DNA of 64,000 bases from Thermococcus aggregans (GTDB taxonomy: Archaea > Methanobacteriota_B > Thermococci > Thermococcales > Thermococcaceae): contig NZ_CP099582.1 of the NCBI RefSeq assembly GCF_024022995.1, positions 1,477,054-1,541,053 on the forward strand. The letters are read 5' to 3'. A program made the translations under genes and the position numbers. Below are positions 9,159 through 49,291 of this stretch, in pieces. The notes beneath the pieces were generated by a model, which had not been told where the DNA came from, searched no databases, and saw only the letters and a list, made by a program, of their open reading frames with translations. How positions within the stretch are numbered: position 1 is the stretch's first letter; each line of letters starts with the position of its first letter.

Positions 9159-10019
9159 TCACTCCGTTACCCCTTTGATGTCAACATGAACAAATGCAAC
9201 CTCAACCTCATCGAGGTTTTCGATTCTCTTTTTAACTTCTTCGCTTATGTCATGGGCCTCTTTAAGAGTCAAATGCGGGGGAACCTCTATATGCAGTTCA
9301 ACATGAAGTTTTGGCCCAACATAGTGCGCCCTTAGGTCGTGAACGCCGATAACACCCTCCACCTCAAGGGCAGTTTTTTTAATTTTTTCACAAAGTTCAA
9401 ACGGCGGAGAAGTGCCGGTTAGGTAGTGCACATTCCTGAGGACTATCTCAACGGCTGCTTTTCCTATCATCAATGCCACAATAAGCCCTGCCAAGGCATC
9501 TCCATAGCCAAACCCAAGTTTCTGAAAGAGCAAGCCTATTAACACTGCTACGCTGCTCAGGGCGTCACTTCTGTGGTGGTATGCATCTGCAATCAATATC
9601 TGGTTGTTGAGTTTCCTCCCCACTCTAAGGGAGTATTGTGTCATAGCTTCTTTTGAGAGAATAGAGACCACAACAACGGCAAACATAAGCGAGTTGACTT
9701 CAATGACGTATCCAACGAAAATTCTCTCTAAAGCATCTTTACCTATCTCATAGGCAACCAGAAAGAGTCCCATACCAATGAAGAGGGCAAACAAGGGTTC
9801 GAATCTGGAGTGCCCAAAGGGGTGAGTCTTATCGGCTGGCTTTGAGGATATCTTAACTCCTATGTAGCCTATAACGCTCGTAACAACGTCTGAGAGGGAG
9901 TGAATGCCATCGGAAATCAAAGCTAAACTTGAATACATGAGCCCCACAAGAACTTTGAGAATGGCCAAAAGAATATTTCCAAAAATACTGACTATCAGAG
10001 GCCTGTAGAGTTCTTCCAT
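9159..10019 (-). CDS. Cation diffusion facilitator (CDF) family metal transporter
   Basis: 286 residues with about six N-terminal membrane segments followed by a cytoplasmic metal-binding-type domain. Conserved CDF residues are visible: D37, H40 and D44 in SDGIHSLSD; HPFGH at 66-70; and H148-x3-D152 in ADAYHHRSD. The two HxxxD motifs form the transport-site metal tetrad. CDF proteins export Zn, Fe, Mn or Co in exchange for protons; the substrate here is not determined. The ATG at 10019 follows a GAGGGG ribosome binding site that overlaps the 3' end of a C/D box sRNA. The next gene encodes a ferritin-like protein, which hints at iron. Confidence 0.88.
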   Translation of the reverse strand: MEELYRPLIVSIFGNILLAILKVLVGLMYSSLALISDGIHSLSDVVTSVIGYIGVKISSKPADKTHPFGHSRFEPLFALFIGMGLFLVAYEIGKDALERIFVGYVIEVNSLMFAVVVVSILSKEAMTQYSLRVGRKLNNQILIADAYHHRSDALSSVAVLIGLLFQKLGFGYGDALAGLIVALMIGKAAVEIVLRNVHYLTGTSPPFELCEKIKKTALEVEGVIGVHDLRAHYVGPKLHVELHIEVPPHLTLKEAHDISEEVKKRIENLDEVEVAFVHVDIKGVTE

Positions 10020-10024
10020 TGTAA

Positions 10025-10083
10025 ACCCCTCAGTCCGTCACTCCCTCATCACAACTCAGATAAGGCTGAACTCTTCATTGGGT
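10025..10083 (-). ncRNA. C/D box sRNA (2'-O-methylation guide)
   Basis: On the minus strand the order is: C box ATGAAGA (10072-10078), a 12-nt guide, D' box CTGA (10056-10059), a 3-nt linker, a perfect C' box GTGATGA (10046-10052), a 12-nt guide, and D box CTGA (10030-10033). The 12-nt spacers are the hallmark of archaeal C/D guides. The flanks ACCC and GGGT can pair to close the terminal stem. A TATA box at 10104-10111 is about 25 bases upstream of the inferred 5' end. The guides read GTTCAGCCTTAT and GGGAGTGACGGA; their targets were not identified. Its D box abuts the ribosome binding site of the CDF gene. Confidence 0.85.
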
Positions 10084-10103
10084 GTTATACACTTAACTTG
10101 GAG

Positions 10104-10111
10104 TTTTTAAA
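10104..10111 (-). promoter_or_regulatory. TATA box for the C/D sRNA and CDF gene
   Basis: The minus strand reads TTTAAAAA, centred about 25 bases upstream of the predicted sRNA 5' end near 10083. The spacing is right for archaeal TBP/TFB initiation. No separate promoter is seen between the sRNA and the CDF start, so one transcript may give both products. Confidence 0.55.
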
Positions 10112-10172
10112 TGTTTTTCATTGTTTCAAAAGACTTTTATTAGTAGGCAAAAAACAACAAGTGGTGGAGATT

Positions 10173-10529
10173 ATGGCAAATAAGCCGAGGTATACGATAA
10201 GGATTTACATGGGAAGCAAAGACAAGTATATCGCTCTAAGCCTATGGGACGCCCGTACAGATGAGTATGGAAATTTTAGACCTGCAAACATAAGCATGAT
10301 AATTCACAACGAGGACATCGAGGCAAAGGCTTCAATGAGAACCGAGACTGCTGCGAGATTAGCGGCTGTGCTTTTAAGTATGGTGGCAGAGGCAGAAAAA
10401 CTTACCATGAAAGAAAAGAAGAAGATTAGCCTCGAAGGAAGACTGGAGGGGCAGTTCCTTCTTGAAGAAGAGGAAGAAGATATTCTCGAAGAGGTAGAAA
10501 GAATAGAACCAAGTGTTGACGAGGAGTGA
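10173..10529 (+). CDS. Conserved hypothetical protein with acidic C-terminus
   Basis: 118 residues from MANKPRYTIRIYMGS. The start is fixed by the ribosome binding site GGTGGAG 4-5 bases upstream; an in-frame ATG at 10098 has none. The first 75 residues predict a small alpha/beta domain. The tail is strongly acidic, with a run of Glu around residues 95-108. There is no signal peptide, membrane segment or metal motif. I do not recognise the family. It overlaps the next radical SAM gene by 4 bases (GTGA), so the two are probably one operon and the protein may be a partner of that enzyme. Confidence 0.7.
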   Translation: MANKPRYTIRIYMGSKDKYIALSLWDARTDEYGNFRPANISMIIHNEDIEAKASMRTETAARLAAVLLSMVAEAEKLTMKEKKKISLEGRLEGQFLLEEEEEDILEEVERIEPSVDEE

Positions 10530-11362
10530 TTGCTTTGAAAAAGCTCAAAGTTTACATACCGGGAGTTTCTTTTCCATCAATCTCTCTTACTGGAAACTAC
10601 TGCGCCTTAAACTGCGCTCACTGCGGGAGGCATTATCTTGAAGGAATGAAGAAGGTTACAAAACAGAGTCTCCTTGAATACTGCAAGTCTCTTGAAAAAG
10701 AGGGTTGTAAAGGCTGTCTCTTAAGTGGAGGAATGGATTCCCGCCTGAAAGTACCGCTCGATCTCTATTCTTCGGAGATAGAGCGAATAAAAAAGGGAAC
10801 AAAGTTAAAACTCAACGCCCACGTTGGATTCATAGATGAAAGGGACTTAGAATGGATAAGGCATGTAGATGTGGTTTCGCTCGATTTTGTGGGTAGTGAT
10901 GAAGTCATCAAAAGGGTCTATAAAATAGAAAAGGGCGTTAAAGATTACATTGAGATATTGGAGCTTTTAGTATCGAATGGAGTTAAAGTTGCACCGCACA
11001 TAACGATTGGCCTGGACTTTGGAAAGGTCTGGTGGGAGTATAAGGCCATTGACATGCTTGTGGAATATCCAATTGATGTCTTGGTTCTTAATGTGCTGAT
11101 TCCCACAAAAGGGACAGAAATGGAAGGCATAGCTGTTCCTTCTGTAGAAGAGAGTCTAAAAGTTGTCAAATACGCAAGGGAGAAATTTAATGGCGAGCTG
11201 AGCATTGGATGCATGCGGCCCCTCGGAAAATGGAGGCTGGAGTTTGACAAAGGAGCAATAGAGAATGGGATCGACAGAATAACGAATCCCCCAAGAAAAG
11301 TCATCGAATGGGCAAAAAAGATAAGGGAAGTGGAAATCATTTACGAATGCTGCGTTATGTGA
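10526..11362 (+). CDS. Radical SAM protein, biotin-synthase-like (COG1856-type)
   Basis: 278 residues. C26-x3-C30-x2-C33 in YCALNCAHCGRH is the radical SAM [4Fe-4S] motif, and later glycine-rich strands (LLSGGMDSR, HITIGLDFG) fit the TIM barrel. The protein resembles the uncharacterised biotin/lipoyl synthase homologues grouped as COG1856. The C-terminus ends with a Cys-Cys pair (ECCVM), which might bind an auxiliary cluster. The GTG at 10526 overlaps the stop of the upstream gene; a TTG at 10535 with GAGGAG upstream is an alternative. The substrate is unknown. It overlaps the convergent exchanger gene by 8 bases. Confidence 0.8.
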   Translation: MIALKKLKVYIPGVSFPSISLTGNYCALNCAHCGRHYLEGMKKVTKQSLLEYCKSLEKEGCKGCLLSGGMDSRLKVPLDLYSSEIERIKKGTKLKLNAHVGFIDERDLEWIRHVDVVSLDFVGSDEVIKRVYKIEKGVKDYIEILELLVSNGVKVAPHITIGLDFGKVWWEYKAIDMLVEYPIDVLVLNVLIPTKGTEMEGIAVPSVEESLKVVKYAREKFNGELSIGCMRPLGKWRLEFDKGAIENGIDRITNPPRKVIEWAKKIREVEIIYECCVM

Positions 11363-43246: not shown

Positions 43247-43702
43247 ATGGCAAAGCTTCAGGCTCATCATATAAGGGTATCAACTTTTGCCCATGCAACA
43301 GAGGATCCAGAAAAAGTCCTCGAAGCCATGGGGACTTTTTTTCCCGAGGATATTCCGTCAGAAGACATAGAGTTTGAGATAATCGAAACCGAGGGTTATT
43401 TTGGAAATCCAATAAAAGTGATAAACGCTGAAGTAAAGAGGAGCAGAAGCGTAAAAAAGATGCTGGAGCACCTTAAAAATCTCCTAAGTGAAGAAGATAA
43501 AGAGTATCTCTTGGAAAACCTTGAAGAAAAAGTTGATGAGACCGGGACGTTCTTTATCCGCTTCAGCAAACAGAAGGCATATTTAGGAGAGGCAGTAATA
43601 GGAGAAGGAGAGGACGTTATCCAGGTCAAGATAAAAGTCAAGGCCTTCCCAATGAGGAAAGAAACAGTCGTAAAAGCAATTAAGGAGTGGCTGAGCGAAT
43701 GA
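43247..43702 (+). CDS. RNA-binding protein, exosome-associated type (COG1325)
   Basis: 151 residues from [20 protein letters not shown]. The alpha/beta pattern and the segment [20 protein letters not shown] belong to the archaeal COG1325 family of double-stranded-RNA-binding-like proteins, predicted to work with the exosome. GAGGTGAGAGAC precedes the ATG. Its stop overlaps the Rpp30 start (ATGA at 43699-43702), so it is translated together with an RNase P subunit, which supports a role in RNA processing. Confidence 0.82.
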
Positions 43703-44340
43703 AGTGGGTTGAAATGGACATCAGAAGCGAGGAAGCTTATAATCAAGCTAAGGAATGGTACGATGAGGTTGTCTTTACAAAGAAGATCTATTTGAAAAGC
43801 TCCCCAAATTTTGAGGAGCTCAAAAGTGAAGTCAAAAGCCTCAGGGAAAAATACGAAAAAGTTGCCCTGCTACTCATTACAGAAAAGCCTTCTCTGGTAA
43901 GGGAAGTAAGGAAAAGGATTTCAAATGCACTTATTTACGTGCAGGGTGGCAATCTAAGGGTTGTTAGATTTGCGATAGAGAACAAGGTCGATGCAATAAT
44001 TTCTCCAGAATACGGGAGAAAAGATTCCGGCCTTGATCATGTCCTTGCGAGACTAGCAGCAAGGAACGACGTCGCAATAGGATTTGCTCTTTCTCCTCTT
44101 CTAAGGGCAAACTCCTATGAAAGAGCCAATATTCTGAAGTTTATGATGAGAAACTGGCGGCTTGTGGATAAGTATAAAGTGCCAAGATTTTTGACTTCCT
44201 CTGCTGAGTCCAAGTGGGAAGTACGTTTTCCTAGAGATTTAATGAGCCTTGGGATAAACATTGGCATGGAAATTCCGCAAGCAAAGGCTTCGCTAAGTTT
44301 TTACCCCGAAATGATACTAAAAAAGTTCAAAAAGAGTTAG
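43699..44340 (+). CDS. rnp3: RNase P protein component 3 (Rpp30)
   Basis: 213 residues from [15 protein letters not shown]. It has the PHP-like TIM barrel of Rpp30, with typical segments [37 protein letters not shown] and a C-terminal [15 protein letters not shown]. It forms the catalytic-domain protein pair with Pop5 in archaeal RNase P, which matures tRNA 5' ends. The ATG overlaps the previous stop by 4 bases; an earlier in-frame start at 43687 lies within that gene and is less likely. Confidence 0.92.
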
Positions 44341-44347
44341 AAAGGTG

Positions 44348-45454
44348 TTACTCGTTTTCTTCAAGCAAACGAGTTAACAATGCCCACTGCTGGTCTTCAA
44401 AAGCCTCCTTTTCTGCAACGAGTATTAGAGTCCCCTTATGACTTACAACAAAATCCTTCAACCTGTTTAGGAATTTTATTACACTTGTGAACTCATTGTA
44501 CATGACCAAATATTCCAGACAGTCTATTATTATAATTCCCCTACCCCCAGCCTCTTCAATGGCTTTTAAGTATTTGTATGATAACTCTGTCATTTTCTCT
44601 AAGTTCGTAGGCGGGATTGCTTCTACTCCGCTCTCTTTGGTAGCTGTAGTCACAAAATAATAAGTCCACGTCTCCGGGATATTGGTCAAAGTTCTTACAA
44701 ATGCAAGGACGGGCGCATCTTTCAGTTTTTCTTTTATCCTTTTGTACTTTTCCGAGTTTATTATCTTGACACCGGGCTCTATCTCGACTTCATGGATTTC
44801 CATCGTTTTTAGCTTGAGGAATTGTTCCGAAGATGCCAATTTTATCGTTAATGAAGTCAACATTACAATTAATACCATTGAGATTCCATAGCCTATAAGC
44901 GGATACACTTCACTGGGGTTTATGTAGATTAGCGGGATCGGAAGCAAATGTAAACCAAAGAGAATAAGTGCGCCTTTTAGATAAGCAATCTTTTTCCCAT
45001 AAATCTCTTCAATTTCGCCTATTTGCAACCCTGCAATAACAAAGAAAAATGCTGCAACACTATGAGAACTTAAAAGCGAAGCAAATCCTGTAGCTTTGGA
45101 GTCTGCTGTGTAATCCACTAAAACCGTATAAATGGTCAAGGCAAGAGCTAGTGCTAGGAATTTTGATATCTTTGTGGGGTCTAATTGTAATCCATTATTT
45201 TCCTCCCAAATCAAATTAATACTTCCCAAAAAGAACAGTATTGAAACTAGAATTACCAAGATACTAGCAATGTAGGGATTACCAGCATTGTAAGTCAACA
45301 CAAGCAGAAAATCAAAAAGCCATGTCAATGACAAATACAAAGCGGATTTTCTCCTATTTTTAAGGTAAACTCTAAGTATCAGTCCAAATGCGAGCAAATC
45401 CGCAATTAATACGATTGCACCTTCAAACATCCCTATTAGCTGGTAGTTTACCAT
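44348..45454 (-). CDS. DUF835 protein with N-terminal seven-helix membrane domain
   Basis: 368 residues. The first 215 contain about seven membrane segments. The cytoplasmic C-terminal part (about 245-368) is a DUF835 domain: APVLAFVRTL, GRGIIIIDCLEYLVMYNEFT and GTLILVAEKEAF. DUF835 is an archaeal alpha/beta domain of unknown function, commonly fused to membrane or sensor domains. GGGGTGGTTTAG precedes the ATG, which lies 32 bases inside the end of the upstream LuxE/PaaK-like gene, so the two are translationally linked. A signalling or membrane-scaffold role is inferred. Confidence 0.75.
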   Translation of the reverse strand: MVNYQLIGMFEGAIVLIADLLAFGLILRVYLKNRRKSALYLSLTWLFDFLLVLTYNAGNPYIASILVILVSILFFLGSINLIWEENNGLQLDPTKISKFLALALALTIYTVLVDYTADSKATGFASLLSSHSVAAFFFVIAGLQIGEIEEIYGKKIAYLKGALILFGLHLLPIPLIYINPSEVYPLIGYGISMVLIVMLTSLTIKLASSEQFLKLKTMEIHEVEIEPGVKIINSEKYKRIKEKLKDAPVLAFVRTLTNIPETWTYYFVTTATKESGVEAIPPTNLEKMTELSYKYLKAIEEAGGRGIIIIDCLEYLVMYNEFTSVIKFLNRLKDFVVSHKGTLILVAEKEAFEDQQWALLTRLLEENE

Positions 45455-46508
45455 CTAAACCACCCCTCTTAGGATTGGCAAATCCATCCCATGCAAACGG
45501 TTTTGTAGGAGGAATTCTTGTTATTTCCTCATTTTCAATTTTAATAATCAATATCTCTGGTCTCGCTATAACAAGAGCCATTTTTCCTCTTTCTCTATAC
45601 TTTACCACTCTGTAACCGTTGTCTTCTTTGACCAACGGAAGTGCAATTGTGAATGGATAGTTAGGGTAATATACGATGTCATTATTTTTAACCATTCCCA
45701 CTAGGTCACCAAATGCATAATGGCCGTACAACGGAATTATTGTCCCATTTGGAAACTCCTCCTGGAGCTCTTTGAGGTACTGGATTGTAATCTCCAGCCC
45801 ACTAAGGATTATCGTTTCTATGTTCTCCAATTGGTGCAAAAAGAGATCTAACAATGGAGGGGCACTTCTTATGGTATTTATTTTATCTTTCTCGAGTACC
45901 CTCCTCGTGTATTTAACTAGCGGCGCTAATCTGCCCCTTAAAAGATATTCCAGTCCTTTTTCATACAACTCTCTTTTTATCCCATCGGTTTCGAACCCAA
46001 TAAAATATAAAAGGCCACTATACGACCAGACTAGCTCACTAATTTCTTCCTGGTACCAACCATAGGGTCCATGTGCAATTGCCCTCATCTTGTGTTTTTC
46101 GTCATACTTTTCATTCAATTTGTAAACCTCATCGAAAGACAATTTTAAGTATTTCACAAGAACCTTTACGTACTCATAGTCCCAATGTCCAATTGCTCTT
46201 TCCCCGGTTGTACCTGATGATTGATAAAACCGTATCTTTCCATTATAATTTTCAGGGAGAAACTCCAGCCAATTATTTCTTAAGTATTCCTCTTCAACAA
46301 ACAGACCTTGATTAAAAATTTTCTCAAATATCTCCTCCAAGCTCCCTTCAAAAATTTCTTCCAAATTGAACTTACTCCGTTGTTTCTTCCAATATGGGGT
46401 GTGTGACAGGTGGTATTCAAAAACCCTCCATAGGTACTCTCGTATTTGTTCTTTATCAATTTTTAGAGGATTTTGGTATTCGCTTATTATATTTTCATAC
46501 ACTACCAT
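45423..46508 (-). CDS. LuxE/PaaK-like acyl-adenylating protein, C-terminal lid reduced
   Basis: 361 residues. The adenylate-forming signature FYQSSGTTGERAIGHWDYE (about 97-115) is present, followed by a Rossmann-like core and a PLYGHYAFGD segment where related enzymes have an aromatic-G-x-T-E motif. The C-terminus ends soon after (PFAWDGFANPKRGG) without the GK-containing lid subdomain, so it looks like LuxE-type acyl-protein synthetases, or a half-reaction enzyme. GGAGGGATATA precedes the ATG. It is divergent from a second member at 46689 and overlaps the DUF835 gene. The substrate is unknown; a fatty or aryl acid is likely. Confidence 0.72.
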   Translation of the reverse strand: MVVYENIISEYQNPLKIDKEQIREYLWRVFEYHLSHTPYWKKQRSKFNLEEIFEGSLEEIFEKIFNQGLFVEEEYLRNNWLEFLPENYNGKIRFYQSSGTTGERAIGHWDYEYVKVLVKYLKLSFDEVYKLNEKYDEKHKMRAIAHGPYGWYQEEISELVWSYSGLLYFIGFETDGIKRELYEKGLEYLLRGRLAPLVKYTRRVLEKDKINTIRSAPPLLDLFLHQLENIETIILSGLEITIQYLKELQEEFPNGTIIPLYGHYAFGDLVGMVKNNDIVYYPNYPFTIALPLVKEDNGYRVVKYRERGKMALVIARPEILIIKIENEEITRIPPTKPFAWDGFANPKRGGLDGKLPANRDV

Positions 46509-46688
46509 TATATCCCTCCTCCAAAAATGATATCATAGAGGTATTAAGGTTCATAACTATGTTTCGAAGTTCTTAATTAATGCTTACTTATTATTGACGT
46601 TTATTAATGTTTCTAAAACTAACTAAAAAACCTTAAATATTTTGACAACACCAAACCAAAATAAGTTAAAACAAGAAGGTGAGTTTTA

Positions 46689-47969
46689 ATGAACGGGTTG
46701 ATACTTGGAAAAACAGATAAAGAAGAACTTAGATATACCATTGAAACTGCTTATAATTTCACCGCATTATGGAAAGAAAGGTTCGAAGAATTAAACATAA
46801 ACGATTTATGCCCTGAATATTTTCTCAGCAATATAAACAGGATACATGTAACCCCTCATGACCTCAACGATAAAGAGAGAGTATGCCCGGAATATATCAA
46901 AGAAAAAAAAGTTTTCCATGGAATTATGAGGACCAGCGGCACAACTGGAGAACCAAAAAGGATACCTTTTACAAAGGATGACAAAAAGAGATATGGTCGG
47001 CAAGCTTGGCCATGGGTAAGTGTTTATCTCGACAACGGATCCACGATAGCATCGTTTTTTCCACAATTGCCTTCTTCTTCGGGAGTATTCGCTTTTGGGG
47101 CTCTTGAATCAGTAGACGCAAAGATAGCATACCACCAGATCCCAATACAATACTTGCGAATGAAGGATGCACTACTAAAGGAGTTCAAAAGTATAAAACC
47201 AAACGTCCTATTTGCTCTGACAACTGCAGCTTATGTGTTAGGTTTAACACTCCCTGAAGATATCAAAAATGACATTCAAGTAATAGTAGTAGGCGGAGAA
47301 ACGCTGACAGAAGAACTCGCAAGAGCTACCCTCGAGAATTTCCCGAATGCTATTATAGTTGATAATTTCGGCAACACAGAAGATGGGATAACAGGATACA
47401 GGATAATAACAAAGAACAAAGTAGAATCCTTTTCCTTCCCCGAGTCTATGATTATATTAAAACCGGATGGGGACGATGAGTACAAGGAGTATCACGAAAT
47501 CTACATTACCAAAATAATGAAAGAGGGAGAACTTACAGGATTGCCATTATTCAATTACAAGATTGGAGATTTGGCAAAAGTCGTTGATGGTAAAGTCATG
47601 AACATAATCAGAGTAAAAGACGTTGTGAGCTTATCTGGAGCAAAACTCCACATAGACCAAGTTATGGACATCGTTCATAGATATCCCTTCCTAGTAGACT
47701 TTGTGATAATTTACCACCCTCTCTCGCCGGGTAATCCGAAACCAAAAGCCATAATAAGGGTGGGATACATTGGAGAAAAGCCCGCTGGCATAGAAGATGA
47801 AATAAGGGAGCTGATATATGAAGCCAACAACCCCGTTAGGTATGAAGTGGAAGAAGCAAAGTCTTCTGAGCTTATTGTAGAGGCAGTTCCAGCGGAAGAA
47901 GTTAGAAAAGGCCTGCCCCAAAAACCAGGCAAAACAAAGAGAATATTCATAGTTGGAAAAGACATCTAA
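46689..47969 (+). CDS. PaaK-like adenylate-forming enzyme (acyl-CoA ligase superfamily)
   Basis: 426 residues. The ATP-binding loop is IMRTSGTTGEPKRIPFT (about 79-95). It also has VIVVGGETLTEEL, the motif NFGNTEDGITGY, the hinge IGDLAKVVDG and a C-terminal lid ending GKTKRIFIVGKDI, with the conserved Lys. This is the full phenylacetate-CoA ligase/F390-synthetase fold. AGAAGGTGAG precedes the ATG, and a TATA-like CTTAAATATTTTG lies about 45-55 bases upstream. It is divergent from a second, shorter member. The acid and acceptor (CoA, protein or other) are unknown. Confidence 0.78.
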   Translation: MNGLILGKTDKEELRYTIETAYNFTALWKERFEELNINDLCPEYFLSNINRIHVTPHDLNDKERVCPEYIKEKKVFHGIMRTSGTTGEPKRIPFTKDDKKRYGRQAWPWVSVYLDNGSTIASFFPQLPSSSGVFAFGALESVDAKIAYHQIPIQYLRMKDALLKEFKSIKPNVLFALTTAAYVLGLTLPEDIKNDIQVIVVGGETLTEELARATLENFPNAIIVDNFGNTEDGITGYRIITKNKVESFSFPESMIILKPDGDDEYKEYHEIYITKIMKEGELTGLPLFNYKIGDLAKVVDGKVMNIIRVKDVVSLSGAKLHIDQVMDIVHRYPFLVDFVIIYHPLSPGNPKPKAIIRVGYIGEKPAGIEDEIRELIYEANNPVRYEVEEAKSSELIVEAVPAEEVRKGLPQKPGKTKRIFIVGKDI

Positions 47970-48040: not shown

Positions 48041-49291
48041 ATGAAGCCAAAGATAATTCACGATCCCATTCATGGGAGTATGAAGGTAAGCGGACTCATA
48101 TTGGATCTCATAAAAACCCCAGAATTTCAAAGACTAAGGAACATAAAGCAATTAGGTCTTGCGTACCTTGTCTATCCCGGCGCAAACCATTCTCGCTTTG
48201 AGCACTCCCTCGGCACATATAACATTGCGAAACGGCTTGGTACAGAGCTTGATCTCAGCGAGGAGGAACAAACTCTTCTAGAGGCAGCCGCTTTGCTTCA
48301 CGACATTGGTCACGGCCCGTTTTCGCACACGTTTGAGCAAATATATGAGCACTACGTCAGAGAATACGATCACATGCATCTTGGCCAAAACATCATACTC
48401 GGAAAAATCGACATAATAGACGGAGACATAGATGGAAGGCAATTCATACCCGAGATACTGGAGTTTTACGGCTACGAGCCAAAGGAAGTTGCCAATCTTA
48501 TTCTGGGAAAATACGAGAAAAAGTACCTTGGACAAGCACTACATGGAGACGTCGATGCTGATCAGCTCGACTACCTCATCAGAGATGCCCACTACACCGG
48601 TGTAGCCCATGGGATAATTGACCTTGAGAGGCTTTTGAAAGTCATAAGAATCCACAATAATGAACTTGTGGTCGATGAAAAGGGAGTAGAGGCTGTTGAA
48701 GGGATGATGGTTGCTAGGGCGCTAATGTACTCCAGAGTTTACTTCCACCACACGGTGAAGATAGCAGAGGGGATGCTAACGAGAGCATTGGAGTTCGCTC
48801 TTGAGGATGGTCATCTCTGGGACTTCTGGAAAATGACCGACTGCAGGGTTCTTGTAGAGCTTGAGGACTTGGAAGGCTACCCAAGAGAGATCGTAAAGCG
48901 CATTAAATACCGCGACTTGTTTAAGGCGGCAGTGCTATTGGGAGCAGATGAGCTCACTACTGAGGAAAAAAGAGAATTGCTGACAGTTTACAGGAACATA
49001 AAGAAGCGGCAGGAACTTGAAAGAAAATTAGCAGATGCTGTAGGAGCGAGAGAGGGGGAAGTCATTATAGAATTCTCGACGGCTGACCTAATGCTTACAG
49101 AGCCAAGATTAAAGTCAACAGAAATCGGAGTGATAATGCACAATGGAGAAGTGAAGCCCCTAACAAAGGTCACACCCCTTGCAAATGCTCTCAAGAGGCG
49201 CCAAACACCAAGATGGGCTGTTATGATTGCATCACCGTCAAAATACGTTGACAAAATTAGAGAAGTATGGAGAAAAGTCCTCTTCAGCTAG
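48041..49291 (+). CDS. HD-domain phosphohydrolase (SAMHD1/dGTPase-like)
   Basis: 416 residues. Metal site residues are H50 in GANHSRFEHSLGT, H87-D88 in LLHDIGHGPFSH and a later Asp in GDVDADQLDYLIRDAHYTG (near 176). The early IIHDPIHG motif is typical of the archaeal/bacterial SAMHD1-like group, which hydrolyses dNTPs to nucleosides and triphosphate. Its activity here is inferred. GGGTGAGAAATT precedes the ATG, and TTATTTAAC about 40 bases upstream may be the TATA box. It overlaps the convergent XRE regulator gene by 8 bases. Confidence 0.88.
   Translation: MKPKIIHDPIHGSMKVSGLILDLIKTPEFQRLRNIKQLGLAYLVYPGANHSRFEHSLGTYNIAKRLGTELDLSEEEQTLLEAAALLHDIGHGPFSHTFEQIYEHYVREYDHMHLGQNIILGKIDIIDGDIDGRQFIPEILEFYGYEPKEVANLILGKYEKKYLGQALHGDVDADQLDYLIRDAHYTGVAHGIIDLERLLKVIRIHNNELVVDEKGVEAVEGMMVARALMYSRVYFHHTVKIAEGMLTRALEFALEDGHLWDFWKMTDCRVLVELEDLEGYPREIVKRIKYRDLFKAAVLLGADELTTEEKRELLTVYRNIKKRQELERKLADAVGAREGEVIIEFSTADLMLTEPRLKSTEIGVIMHNGEVKPLTKVTPLANALKRRQTPRWAVMIASPSKYVDKIREVWRKVLFS

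Follow-up and report, generated by a model that had tools for sequence, protein, structure and literature searches.

Two different relatives of acyl-adenylating enzymes encoded back to back, one of them overlapping the gene of a DUF835 membrane protein, raise the question of whether the three genes work together and, if so, in what kind of reaction. We studied this in Thermococcus aggregans, in a stretch of 64,000 nucleotides (the window) from a genome that consists of a single contig of 1.89 Mb. We call the shorter protein of the divergent pair E1 and the longer one E2.

Structure of the locus

The preliminary description of this DNA had been made from the letters alone. Its gene coordinates, the 32-base overlap between the DUF835 gene and E1, the 180 bp between the divergent genes E1 and E2, and the motifs SSGTTGERAIG (E1) and TSGTTGEPKRI (E2) were all confirmed (Table 1). 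Plausible ribosome-binding sites can be read near the starts, namely GGAGGAGG before E1, AAGGTGA before E2, and, for the DUF835 gene, AGGGGTGG, which is located within the end of E1. The gap between E1 and E2 is about 120 bp in most relatives. Inspection by eye of 39 intergenic sequences revealed a TATA-like box toward each gene that is kept in relatives. Some Thermococcus gaps also carry an imperfect TTGG-N-CCAA repeat beside the E2 box, a possible operator. Because this repeat is not conserved across the whole set, we do not claim an operator shared by the two promoters.

Table 1. Features of the E1/E2 locus and its flanks, in positions of the window
Feature	Position	Strand	Basis or remark
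RNase P component 3	43687-44340		next to the DUF835 gene in the window's genus alone; unlinked in the rest of the order
DUF835 membrane protein, 368 aa	44348..45454	-	PF05763, hydropathy, E1 neighbour, co-divergence
E1, 361 aa, EhpF-type adenylate-fold protein without lid	45423..46508	-	profile, AF2 model
E1 phosphate-loop core SSGTT, residues 97-101	46206..46220	-	invariant (32-sequence alignment)
Divergent promoter region E1/E2, 180 bp	46509..46688	.	intergenic sequences of 39 relatives, by eye
E2, 426 aa, AMP-forming enzyme of PaaK type for carboxylate activation, with C-terminal lid	46689..47969	+	PF00501, AF2
E2 phosphate loop TSGTTGEPKR, residues 82-91	46932..46961	+	alignment
E2 Mg2+-binding motif (A5) NFGNTED, residues 226-232	47364..47384	+	E231 invariant (29 sequences)
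E2 ribose-binding motif (A7) NYKIGD, residues 289-294	47553..47570	+	D294 invariant (29 sequences)
E2 lid motif (A10) GKTKRI, catalytic-lysine position, residues 414-419	47928..47945	+	alignment
HD-domain phosphohydrolase (HD + HD_assoc_2)	48041-49291

E2 resembles PaaK-type activating enzymes

E2 matches PF00501 (E = 1.7e-9), and its AF2 model (mean pLDDT 85.7) finds its best PDB matches, over the full length, among PaaK-type ligases (4r1m, E = 8.6e-22; 2y27, E = 4.0e-21). It has its fold, length, lid and catalytic motifs in common with the PaaK ligases (2y27, 2y4n, 2y4o) and the Bacteroides protein BT_0428 (4r1m), but its identity to them is 15-19% and it is tied to a lidless partner. The hallmarks of the PaaK branch of the ANL superfamily (P-loop, A5 Glu, A7 Asp and the A10 Lys of the lid) are invariant or nearly so in the 29 sequences aligned. 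The phosphate loop has invariant T82, S83, G84, T85, T86, G87 and K90, and the lid motif has invariant G414, K415 (the A10 lysine), T416 and R418; the A8-like R308 and D311 are invariant among the 29 orthologues as well. Judging from these motifs, E2 is very likely catalytically active, and the earlier suggestion that one of the two enzymes makes an activated acyl group suits E2, which keeps the full activating machinery.

The curated models of named enzymes did not apply. E2 scores 25 bits against PaaK phenylacetate-CoA ligase (NF041878, cut-off 700), 32.9 bits against F390 synthetase (cut-off 458.7) and 48 bits against the DVU_1553 family (cut-off 300). As it falls far below all three, we class it as PaaK-type and not as any of these enzymes. 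The nearest structural relatives suggest aryl acids as a possible substrate.

Thermococcales are well known for using ADP-forming acyl-CoA synthetases. In the window's genome, E2 is the sole PF00501 protein found. Among the 56 genomes with E2, 40 have no further match to this family; in the remaining 16 there is one more, mostly of about 650 residues. We found no phosphopantetheine carrier protein (PF00550) in the window's genome, and a carrier protein was rejected as acceptor. The LuxC-type reductase family (PF05893) has no match in the same genome (G000), and its matches across the order are weak, occur in 17 of 94 genomes and are uncorrelated with E1. With no carrier protein, and no reductase of this type tracking the pair, CoA or a small molecule is the likeliest acceptor of the acyl group of E2.

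E1 is a lidless relative of EhpF

Searches with E1 gave no Pfam match at E < 1, and the 32 E1 orthologues show no consistent one. A profile of these 32 sequences identified EhpF in the PDB (E = 2.7e-5), with nearly the full length of both proteins aligned. The AF2 model of E1 (mean pLDDT 89.9) also has EhpF as its best match (3hgv, E = 2.1e-19), the next family being PaaK at about 1e-11. EhpF is a lidless enzyme of phenazine biosynthesis whose gene belongs to a bacterial phenazine operon. No other structure matches E1 nearly as well, and EhpF is like E1 in fold, length class, lack of a C-terminal lid and an atypical A5 region without Glu; the two differ in sequence (16-18% identity) and in a conserved pocket motif that is E1's own. 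To our knowledge, neither a divergent PaaK-type partner nor a DUF835 gene has been found beside EhpF. The initial label "LuxE/PaaK-like" therefore holds for E1 at the level of the superfamily and fails at that of the family, where EhpF is closest.

The short enzyme had also been described as lacking the C-terminal lid, and both model and alignment agree: the E1 family ends at about 352 aa, and alignment, profile and fold place it with the EhpF-type lidless proteins. About 65 positions are invariant in the 32-sequence alignment. Arg104 is invariant where ANL proteins carry Pro next to Lys, and the Lys usual at this site is variable. Near the place of the A7 ribose-binding motif there is an invariant acidic residue, E325. 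The pocket stretch GPYGWxQxExSxLxW is very conserved, and its part GPYGWxQxExS is invariant or nearly so. The A5 place reads YG-(H/Y)(Y/F)-x-FGD, without Thr-Glu and with no Glu at the position of E2 E231. We rejected E1 as a canonical ANL catalyst, as it lacks this Thr-Glu, with its Mg2+-binding Glu, and the A10 catalytic Lys; by its motifs, E1 alone most likely does not adenylate efficiently. Its pocket and phosphate loop are strongly constrained, so that it probably binds both acid and nucleotide and acts with E2.

E1 and E2 are recognisable as remote relatives (hhalign probability 92%, E = 6e-7). They are distant members of different ANL branches, EhpF-like and PaaK-like respectively, which disposes of the idea that they are duplicated phenylacetate-CoA ligases, named beforehand as an outcome that would undo the proposed link.

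The three genes are inherited together

The pair is present in 56 of 94 Thermococcales genomes, the identical set for E1 and E2, and the two genes are adjacent and divergent in all of them but G058, whose contigs break off between the two genes. Detailed reading of 40 loci gave the gene order DUF835-E1 <-> E2-HD-HTH, barring contig ends, with the DUF835 gene downstream of E1 in the same orientation and spacings between these two from small overlaps to +51 bp. A layout kept in 56 of 94 genomes is not due to chance. Genomes without the pair retain the HD gene and usually the HTH gene, and four of them (G016, G023, G040 and G052) have kept a DUF835 gene beside the HD gene, with E1 and E2 both gone. 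On the tree of the HD protein, from which two genomes with contigs ending at the site were excluded, the pair shows about 11 switches between presence and absence, of which at least 6 are required by branches with good support. At every switch, E1 and E2 change jointly.

We compared pairwise evolutionary distances, controlling for the two flanking genes and for RNase P component 3, a gene of similar evolutionary rate that lies unlinked to the locus in most of the genomes compared. The partial correlations are 0.83 for E1-E2, 0.73 for E1-DUF835 and 0.77 for E2-DUF835 (permutation p = 5e-4), against 0.20 between E1 and an unlinked control gene. Recombination that replaced the genes jointly could account for part of this signal. 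Since its distances correlate with those of E1 and E2 beyond the controls, the DUF835 gene is to be counted as part of the unit. The preliminary description had staked its case on the three genes keeping company in other genomes, and the shared layout, the joint changes and the co-divergence bear it out, including the tie of the DUF835 gene to the enzyme pair.

The flanking genes behave differently. The HD phosphohydrolase is found in 90 of the 94 genomes, with or without the pair, and its co-divergence is weaker; we rejected it as a fourth member. Further HD-like matches occur in many Thermococcales genomes. On the other side, RNase P component 3 is a recent neighbour, because the adjacency is restricted to the window's genus.

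The relatives belong to Thermococcus/Thermococcaceae, and a search of the phylum returned none outside Thermococci. Nor did a search of genome contigs with two signature peptides, but its filter was strict and it returned MAG contigs only, so that it says little about absence. With tblastn against plasmids, the matches reached only about 22-25% identity. Distant relatives in Streptomyces carry the annotation "arylcarboxylate reductase". In the searchable literature, nothing on DUF835 or on EhpF-like or PaaK-like proteins of Thermococcales describes the layout or the locus. None of the three proteins has a match in PADLOC, and an anti-phage defence system was rejected.

The DUF835 membrane protein

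DUF835 is a KaiC-derived domain that occurs in archaeal response regulators (PMC5847659). The protein of the locus matches PF05763 with E = 1.2e-33 and 116.3 bits, well above the curated cut-off of 33.1. The domain is C-terminal (residues 233-364) and degenerate KaiC/FlaH-like, with a weak match to FlaH itself (1.9e-4); Cys312, within the motif IDCLEYL, is near-invariant. The protein had been described as seven-helix. A plain hydropathy scan shows six clear peaks and one weaker stretch, so that the count of N-terminal membrane helices becomes six to seven.

The window's genome has eight matches to the DUF835 query. The paralogues read there adjoin genes for a Na+/H+ antiporter, a DUF116 protein and a phosphorylase, unrelated neighbours that mark DUF835 proteins as a modular family. 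Membrane-bound DUF835 proteins of Thermococcales, with several paralogues per genome, have the same architecture of membrane helices and DUF835, but only the copy described here is attached to the E1/E2 unit. A role as membrane sensor is plausible only from the occurrence of the family in response regulators.

An activating enzyme with a proposed partner subunit, and alternatives

We tentatively explain the three genes as one functional unit, with a probability of roughly 0.42, in which E2 would activate an acid, E1 would be its obligate partner subunit and the co-transcribed DUF835 protein would serve as membrane anchor or sensor. E2 would use ATP to activate a carboxylic acid as acyl-AMP and then, most likely, as a CoA thioester. 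E1, in physical complex with E2 as its second subunit, would bind the acid, ATP or acyl-AMP and gate or channel the reaction. Strict pairing of E1 and E2 across the same genomes, through gains and losses and in their divergence, favours such a heteromeric complex. The explanation as a whole is also supported by the division of motifs, complete in E2 and reduced in E1 to SSGTT and E325, with neither the A5 Thr-Glu nor a lid; the scarcity of other PF00501 proteins and the lack of a PF00550 carrier are also in line with it. On the other hand, adjacent genes can be taken by a single deletion, and co-divergence could stem from joint horizontal replacement. The E1 of genome G077 is frameshifted, with E2 and the DUF835 gene open, so cells may be able to do without E1, at least for a short time. 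Finally, a conserved pocket would be expected of a catalyst no less than of a regulatory subunit, and one-to-one co-occurrence also fits two enzymes of one pathway.

The main rival is indeed a single pathway in which E1 and E2 act consecutively or in parallel, although we think this rather unlikely. E2 would make the acyl-AMP or acyl-CoA, and E1, as an active lidless adenylating enzyme needing no contact with E2, would activate a second acid or hand its acyl-AMP to, for example, a reductase. EhpF, the closest solved relative of E1, is itself lidless and stand-alone, belongs to a biosynthetic pathway and has been proposed to be an active adenylating enzyme; GPYGWxQxExS is not conserved as in a dead domain, and the Streptomyces annotation points the same way. 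Yet no LuxC-type reductase accompanies the pair, no further enzyme is constantly linked to it (HD and HTH genes also occur without it), and E1 lacks the A5 Glu and the lid Lys. Much less probable is an acyl relay, in which one enzyme activates and the other transfers the acyl group to a protein or lipid, with the DUF835 protein as receptor or target. It would account for the layout, the joint inheritance, a membrane protein within the same transcription unit and the absence of a carrier protein. The transferase half had been proposed by analogy with the acyl-protein synthetase LuxE, a distant superfamily kin of both proteins. However, neither E1, E2 nor any of the 32 E1 members matches the LuxE family, the sequence reveals no transfer chemistry, and the lack of any cysteine conserved in at least 60% of the E1 or of the E2 sequences speaks against acyl transfer of the LuxE kind. 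With no LuxC partner either, we rejected the LuxE/LuxC hypothesis; the analogy is to be dropped, and EhpF takes its place. Equally improbable is an ordinary PaaK-like aryl-acid CoA ligase (salvage of fermentation acids of the phenylacetate or indoleacetate type) beside a decaying relative, with the DUF835 gene a chance neighbour. The PaaK-type fold of E2, the broken E1 of G077, the many DUF835 matches beside varied genes and the mobile elements that struck the locus in two genomes would fit, but E1 has an intact reading frame in almost every other bearer, has many invariant positions, comes from another ANL branch than E2, and is missing from no genome that has E2; the DUF835 gene co-diverges with both, and E2 scores 25 bits where the nearest PaaK model requires 700.

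The partner-subunit explanation has a bolder form, in which E1 and E2 are a two-protein adenylating machine with a lidless obligate subunit that delivers acyl groups at the membrane under a DUF835 receptor, an undescribed archaeal system of acyl signalling or modification. We consider this form doubtful, well behind the two-enzyme pathway and only slightly ahead of the relay. Conserved, repeatedly lost and always paired, the two unlike ANL proteins point to one specific membrane-tied acid-activation step. Lidless ANL proteins, so far known from EhpF-like biosynthetic enzymes, gain a constant full-length partner, and their role thereby becomes testable in a thermostable pair and in genetically tractable Thermococcus species.

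Disrupted copies of the locus

Three loci depart from the intact arrangement. In G077 (L033, about 9300-10400), frameshifts break E1 into three pieces, possibly through early decay of the unit or sequencing error. In G076 (L132, 5650-6828), an inserted TnpB-like ORF of 392 aa splits the DUF835 gene, with E1 and E2 open. In G080 (L029, about 10550-11090), the gap between E1 and E2 is 742 bp and holds an apparent transposase remnant, IS6-like by eye.
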